A DNA stretch of 64,000 bases from Campylobacter lari (GTDB lineage Bacteria > Campylobacterota > Campylobacteria > Campylobacterales > Campylobacteraceae), in the NCBI RefSeq assembly GCF_900638335.1, contig NZ_LR134508.1:1364001-1428000 (forward strand), written 5' to 3'. The number at the start of each line of letters is the position of its first letter. Position 1 is the stretch's first letter. The position numbers were made by a program, and so were the translations under genes. This document shows, piece by piece, positions 54,961 to 55,995 of the stretch. The notes beneath the pieces were generated by a model that had not been told where the DNA came from, ran no database searches, and worked only from the letters and a program-made list of their open reading frames with translations.

Positions 54961-55995
54961 CAATTAACAAAAACTAAAAAACCCACCAACCAAAAACAAT
55001 TAATCTTTACTGAGCATATTTATTTTAAAGTACAACACTAATAATTTTACTTAACTATAATACAAATAATATAATATTAACTAATCTATAATTTTATAAA
55101 ACCACAGCACTATTTAATTCAAATATCAATCTTTCCAACCTAAACAAATAACAATCTAAGTAATAACTAACAATAAAATAACAACCAACCCCAACCCATC
55201 AAATAAGCCATTAAAACAATTCAATAACTAACAACACAAATCTAAGCCATAAAAAATAACTAAAACAATCAAGCTAACCAAACAACCAAGAAACACATAA
55301 AAACCCAATTTATCAGATTAATAAAAAACCAAAAACATAAGCAATAAAAACTAAAAAACCAAATTTATCAAACTCGCTATAAACATTTTAAAGCTAAAAC
55401 GACTAAATCCCCAAACAATATAAAACCAAAAGCTAAATCACTAAAAACACAAACAACTAAAAACAAGAATAACAACCATAAAGAATAAAAATAAGAATAA
55501 AAAAATCATAGCAATAAATTAAAAAAATAAAGAATAAAAATAAATTAAAAAATCAAAGAAATACAATTAAATAAAAATCACAAAAAATAAAATAATAAAC
55601 CTAAAAACCATAAAATAGAATAGATTAAAAAAACAATAAAAATTTAAAAATAAAAATCAATAATAAGTAAAAGAATAAACCAATTTAAGGATTAAGCCAA
55701 TAAACAATCAAATAGCATATAAAACTAAATTTTATAAAATAATAAAAAATAACAATAAACATCCTACCTAATCAACACAAACTAATTAGAAATTTTCACA
55801 AGCTAACCAAGCTAATCCACCACAAGCAGTAAAAACTAAACCACTAAATAATTCATGATCGCACCATAAAAGAAATAAAAGAAATAAAAGAAATAAAAGA
55901 AATAAAAGAAATAAAAACTATCTCTAAAGAAAAAACAAATAATAAATCAATTAAGGATTTAACTAAGTAATAAGTAAGAATAATAAAAGAATTAA
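54961..55995. other. G-depleted, A- and C-rich noncoding tract downstream of 5S rRNA
   Basis: About 1 kb without a gene. By hand count, 54961-55920 holds about 41 G and 161 C on the plus strand, with A making up well over half. In minus-strand terms it is C-poor and rich in T and G. Reading frames are short and full of stops. It contains loose, imperfect repeats such as ACTAAAAAACC and CAATTTATCA and ends in a 9-bp tandem repeat. No terminator hairpin with GC stem was found behind 5S. Confidence 0.85.
55866..55915. repeat. 9-bp tandem repeat, about 5.5 copies
   Basis: AGAAATAAA repeats exactly five times at 55871-55915, preceded by the partial unit ATAAA. In minus-strand reading the unit is TTTATTTCT. 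It lies about 80 bases beyond the 3' end of 5S rRNA. Copy number is likely variable between strains. Confidence 0.9.

Follow-up and report, generated by a model that had tools for sequence, protein, structure and literature searches.

The window analysed here is a stretch of 64,000 nucleotides (G000:C1:1364001-1428000) from a closed Campylobacter genome of 1.54 Mb, G000. It contains a ribosomal RNA (rrn) operon on the minus strand, in the order 16S, two tRNAs, 23S and 5S, and behind the 5S gene lies a non-coding tract that is starved of C and rich in G and T in the sense of the rRNA. Table 1 presents the coordinates. Because the 5S gene is on the minus strand, the RNA-sense strand is the one that is poor in C and rich in T and G, as a sequence-only reading of this DNA had stated; its composition is C 4.6, G 16, A 21 and T 58%, and (G+T-A-C)/n is +0.48.

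Table 1. Features of the rrn operon and of the tract behind it, in window coordinates.
Feature	Position	Strand	Remarks
16S rRNA	59980..61493	-	
tRNA-23S spacer	59271..59726	-	equally transcribed internal control, unskewed
23S rRNA	56363..59270	-	
23S-5S spacer	56115..56362	-	equally transcribed internal control, unskewed
5S rRNA	55998..56114	-	final gene of the operon
C-starved, G+T-rich non-coding tract behind 5S	54961..55997	-	base composition in rRNA sense
First ~80 nt behind 5S	55918..55997	-	best-conserved part; C outnumbers G in the first 50 nt, where a TTAATTCTTATTATTCTTACT-like motif is shared
Perfect 9-bp tandem array	55866..55916	-	sense unit TTTTATTTC, 5.7 copies
Diverged tandem repeat, ~80 bp	55523..55681	-	inside the tract; 2 copies, 76% alike
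Diverged tandem repeat, ~38 bp	55390..55464	-	1.9 copies
Neutral DNA separating the tract from the next gene, which is codirectional	54834..54960	.	skew stops near 54960

On the forward strand the 1035 bases from 54961 to 55995 comprise 601 A, 220 T, 166 C and 48 G, and an earlier hand count of 41 G and 161 C in 960 of these bases is correct. The tract had been described as lying far outside the rest of the window, and this is confirmed for GC skew, AT skew and G count alike. In stretches of 1035 bases the GC skew of the tract reaches -0.60 and that of the rest of the window -0.40; the AT skew is +0.47, as against +0.36 at most elsewhere. The fewest G in any other stretch of this length is 73, so that the tract, with 48, is the most G-poor and the most skewed part of the window. 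The same holds against a control consisting of 400 kb drawn from G000 at regular intervals together with the remainder of the window. The maxima of |G+T-A-C|/n in the control are 0.41 for 300-base and 0.33 for 1000-base windows. The three tracts of G000, one behind each of its rrn copies, give 0.47-0.60 and 0.49-0.54 respectively, and are thus matched by no control window. The exceptional property of the tract is this sustained depletion of G and not the individual G-free runs: the longest of these are 76 and 73 bases, whereas the control contains one of 88. The phrase "nearly G-free" used previously is a little strong, since G makes up 4.6% and the runs are not a record.

No convincing ORF was recognized in the tract and no Rfam match was obtained between 5S and the next gene of the window, and a gene or structured RNA within the tract was rejected. 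A search for an intrinsic terminator, meaning a hairpin containing G and C followed by a run of T, found none in the tract, in agreement with the earlier claim that no terminator follows 5S. A search for ghost genes in which C had collapsed to T returned mostly low-complexity matches and a few real pseudogenes.

The tract belongs to rrn operons generally and not to one locus. G000 has three 5S genes, each followed by a tract whose skew has the same orientation with respect to the direction of rrn; neither this nor the 9-bp array of the window had been noted in the sequence-only reading. Among relatives, non-coding tracts of ~0.3-2 kb are found behind rrn in most close relatives of this Campylobacter. 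In 14 Campylobacter genomes (G000, G002, G003, G007, G010, G012, G015, G019, G021, G025, G028, G033, G034 and G087) the gap from 5S to the next gene has a (G+T-A-C)/n of about +0.2 to +0.5, again with this polarity, in nearly every copy; a clear exception is L079 of G007 (+0.01), with other DNA starting ~200 nt behind 5S. G023, represented by a short piece only, also fits the pattern. The most extreme case is G028, with a tract of up to ~1.9 kb and 2-3% C, and past the first ~60 nt the pooled composition for 12 genomes is C 3.4, G 17.5, A 26 and T 53%. The skew is intermediate in G113 and near zero in a subclade of the genus (G004, G027 and two of the three copies of G017), as it is in most other genera and families, although G074, of another genus, has gaps at +0.19 and +0.28 together with a 10-bp array. 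In a 23S tree, in which many forks are weak, the tract-bearing genomes cluster. The tract is thus a real, strong and clade-wide feature. Gaps of ~1 kb or more behind rrn in which no convincing gene is seen are common in the family even where they are unskewed, as at L210-L212 (G163), L207-L209 (G070), L101 and L103 (G027) and L074-L076 (G004).

In most copies the next gene is codirectional with rrn. That of the window is restriction-modification-like and is split into three ORFs (53685-54833, 51845-53281 and 51081-51737, together spanning 51081-54833), while behind the matching rrn of G034, G025 and G028 (L112, L100, L106) there is a single long ORF with nearly the same initial residues. This gene has C at 26% of its third positions, in contrast to other genes of the leading strand, which suggests a recent arrival; a search of viral contigs for relatives of this gene found none. 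Elsewhere in the window, at 8500-11500, the GC skew turns positive against the negative value of the strand, perhaps through inversion or acquisition of this DNA. Two genomes each have a helicase-like gene behind two of their rrn copies (L077 and L078 of G007, L095 and L096 of G021); one copy is truncated, to 140 or 196 aa from about 450, and the shared DNA is nearly identical, suggesting that flanks have been copied between rrn operons. Two genes with intact counterparts in G025 and G034 look decayed at L107 of G033, where they occupy +780 to +1740 behind 5S; the first of the two looks decayed in G028 as well.

Tandem arrays accompany the tracts. At the three rrn copies of G000 an array of TTTTATTTC starts about 82 nt behind 5S and contains 82.7, 19.7 and 5.7 units, so that copy number differs between homologous loci, as in a VNTR or minisatellite. 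Over the bases compared, copies b and c of G000 differ in nothing but the length of this array, a sign of exchange between the rrn operons of this genome. Arrays with units of 8-12 bp occur behind rrn in seven tract genomes, mostly with species-specific units: a rotated form of TTTTATTTC in G034, TTATATTTC in G025 and its rotated form TTTCTTATA in G023, GTTTGTGTG in G010, TTTTTAGTT and TTGAGTGA in G028 and TAATTTATAGTT in G087. The 10-bp unit of G074 is TTTATATCTA. Most of the array-bearing genomes have unequal copy numbers in their different operons. No tandem array scoring at least 100 was detected in the 400 kb control of G000. Such arrays may serve as fast strain markers and may also break draft assemblies at the ends of rrn.

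Lopsided mutation of the RNA-sense strand probably explains the composition of the tract. In published work, non-template strands carry an excess of G+T over C+A, ascribed to deamination of the exposed single strand (PMC10030826). In the tracts C and A are down and G and T are up, matching such strands, and this is the polarity expected from C>T and A>G on the non-template strand. When G000 is compared with G034, C is retained in 15 of 42 columns and G in 123 of 175 (p=6e-5), making C the least conserved base. Inferred changes lean in the same direction. C>T was counted at 9 of 59 sites and G>A at 8 of 113 in the pseudogene behind the rrn of G033, and at 5 of 28 and 13 of 178 respectively in triplets of tracts. 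The pooled values are 14/87 for C>T and 21/291 for G>A (p=0.019), counts that are small and come from parsimony on skewed sequence, which inflates changes from rare to common bases. The corresponding comparison of A>G (22/530) with T>C (15/745) gives p=0.028, again from small counts and with a possible parsimony bias in the same direction. The general bias of the leading strand does not reach as far: fourfold sites have C 7, G 9, A 32 and T 52%, and other gaps on this strand have C 12, G 14, A 36 and T 38%, and the tract exceeds both.

The sequence-only reading had attributed the bias to mutation under read-through from rrn, and of this the polarity fits and the substitutions lean the expected way, while three observations count against it. 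If transcription were sufficient, other DNA that is equally transcribed and weakly constrained would be skewed also. However, the mean skew in 13 genomes is 0.02 for the 16S-23S spacer and 0.04 for the 23S-5S spacer, which are partly constrained, as against 0.35 behind 5S. Identity between G000 and G034 is 96% in the tail of the 16S-23S spacer and 83% in the tract, and the 23S-5S spacer is variable in both length and sequence in several species, yet unskewed. Moreover, little is unusual about the genes that follow the tract. A strong gradient of C loss into them was looked for and only a weak one found, with third-position C at 0.055-0.059 near the tract and ~0.07 farther away, compared with a control mean of 0.067. 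Finally, a hairpin terminator behind 5S is missing across the phylum, including unskewed relatives; G004, G027, G163 and G070 have a gap of ~1 kb and no such hairpin, yet little or no skew, and its absence was therefore discarded as a discriminating factor. Taken together, these observations imply that neither the rate of transcription nor a missing terminator is sufficient, and that the effect needs something special to the untranslated RNA after the last rRNA. Loss of repair does not explain the limits of the clade: in a sample of 25 genomes of the genus, ung was found in every one and RNase HI in 24, the well-covered genomes having both. Nor was a special context found for the surviving C, which are preceded by G with a preference much like that of the whole genome.

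The most serious competing explanation is that the composition is maintained by selection and not by mutation, the tract being a zone in which rRNA transcription terminates. The first ~50 nt would then be a conserved entry site, keeping C and poor in G, for Rho or, once 5S has been cleaved, for RNase J, and the long T-rich stretch beyond would pause and release the polymerase without a hairpin. The tracts do contain two zones: from +1 to +50 C exceeds G (14 vs 5%, then 8 vs 5%) and a motif is shared, after which C drops to 3-5%. Genes for rho and an RNase J-family enzyme are present, the 9-bp unit in G000, G034, G025 and G023 has one TC and no G, and gaps of ~1 kb, skewed or not, commonly follow rrn in this family. 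In other families C exceeds G over the first 150 nt behind 5S, as it would in a Rho site. However, a published rule for rut sites calls for a 78-nt window with C>G and a C every 11-13 nt (PMC6407284), and it is satisfied by none of the sense windows in 12 tracts, as against 2.7% in the control. In addition, the array units of G010, G028 and G087 have no C, and NusG-type TTNTTT pause motifs, which are borderline in the window, show clear enrichment in no more than 2 of 12 tracts. G climbs from ~5% to 20% with distance behind 5S, after the collapse of C, and a termination zone leaves this enrichment unexplained; on balance we consider selection for termination unlikely, while taking it seriously. 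In the opposite orientation, the sequence-only reading had compared the C-rich, G-poor antisense RNA with a Rho loading site that would halt transcription entering rrn from behind. The antisense C:G ratio in the window is indeed 3.5:1, and rut-like antisense windows are enriched in G010 (20%), G087 (12%) and G028 (10%). In the tract of the window itself they make up 2.4%, compared with 2.7% in the control, and they are absent from G021 and from copy a of G000, so that the claim finds no support in the window. Since rrn and the gene that follows point the same way in most copies, little antisense traffic would be expected, and we regard such a barrier as highly improbable.

A bias of replication might be exaggerated at the end of rrn if forks were slowed behind queued polymerases, leaving the template of the lagging strand single-stranded for longer. 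The polarity of the tract is that of the chromosome-wide leading-strand bias, and in the four genomes in which rrn could be placed against dnaA all copies are on the leading strand. A lagging-strand rrn, which might have separated the two processes, was sought and none found among these four, so that replication is inseparable from transcription in this comparison. Still, the spacers within the operon are exposed equally to the fork and are unskewed, and codirectional genes that follow the tract deviate little from normal, making this explanation rather unlikely. We judge slightly less probable the notion that the spacer is a graveyard of T/G-rich arrays that expanded and then decayed, its composition being inherited from their units. 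This would be in keeping with the 8-12 bp arrays of the seven tract genomes and with the larger, diverged repeats (80, 49, 38 and 26 bp) in the tract of the window, but G007, G012, G021 and G033 are strongly skewed without a clear short array, and decay of arrays gives no reason why the units should be poor in C.

Exposure of the non-template strand is, in our estimate, the source of the asymmetry with a probability of roughly 0.45, somewhat short of even odds. The scheme we have in mind is as follows. Behind each rrn, a spacer that is neutral or nearly so would bear a strongly strand-asymmetric load of mutation. RNA polymerase leaving the operon would copy untranslated DNA past 5S, and the non-template strand would be left exposed and single-stranded. 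R-loops made by the free RNA trailing the polymerase are the likeliest setting for this and our best guess as to the most economical cause. C>T and A>G deamination of the exposed strand would follow, as the polarity suggests and the polarised substitutions weakly suggest. Slippage may create and resize the 8-12 bp arrays that are observed. The rising G skew and the loss of C would favour R-loops and weaken C-dependent loading of Rho, so that the process might reinforce itself. Exchange between rrn copies, which the identical tracts support, would spread the sequence within a genome, and translation of the next gene would suppress R-loops and end the tract, in keeping with its sharp boundary. 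As a whole, then, a self-reinforcing, translation-limited R-loop zone behind bacterial rrn would make C-starved, G/T-rich DNA and breed minisatellites; a possible reason is that rRNA transcription in this clade terminates with the help of neither a hairpin nor a sense Rho site. We offer this full version as a speculation, against which we would ourselves wager.

Searches of the literature turned up no description of a C-starved tract behind rrn, and no study surfaced of how rRNA transcription ends in the Campylobacterota, which seemingly lack hairpin terminators behind 5S. A tract with unskewed, equally transcribed neighbours could serve to separate the rate of transcription from the exposure of RNA in strand-specific mutation.

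We regard the tract as a new form of strand-asymmetric sequence evolution with a minisatellite attached, and it may be compared with several known systems. It resembles transcription-associated asymmetry in the excess of G+T over C+A on the non-template strand (PMC10030826), but it is confined to the region behind 5S, is missing from the equally transcribed rrn spacers and is far stronger than in ordinary genes of G000. The chromosome-wide G/T skew of bacterial leading strands has the same sign, although fourfold sites and the remaining gaps of that strand show far less of it than the tract. GC skew is known to favour R-loops, and G-skewed, R-loop-prone regions have been described at CpG-island promoters (PMC10030826); these share with the tract a G-rich, C-poor non-template strand, whereas the tract is bacterial and AT-rich, lies at the end of an operon and is, by its G skew, a candidate for R-loops. 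With Rho-dependent terminators it has in common a short stretch of C over G directly behind 5S followed by untranslated RNA, but no sense 78-nt window fits the rule and the long part loses C. Like bacterial VNTRs and minisatellites, the arrays consist of perfect short tandem units in variable copy number; they differ in occupying a fixed site behind rrn in several species, mostly with different units.
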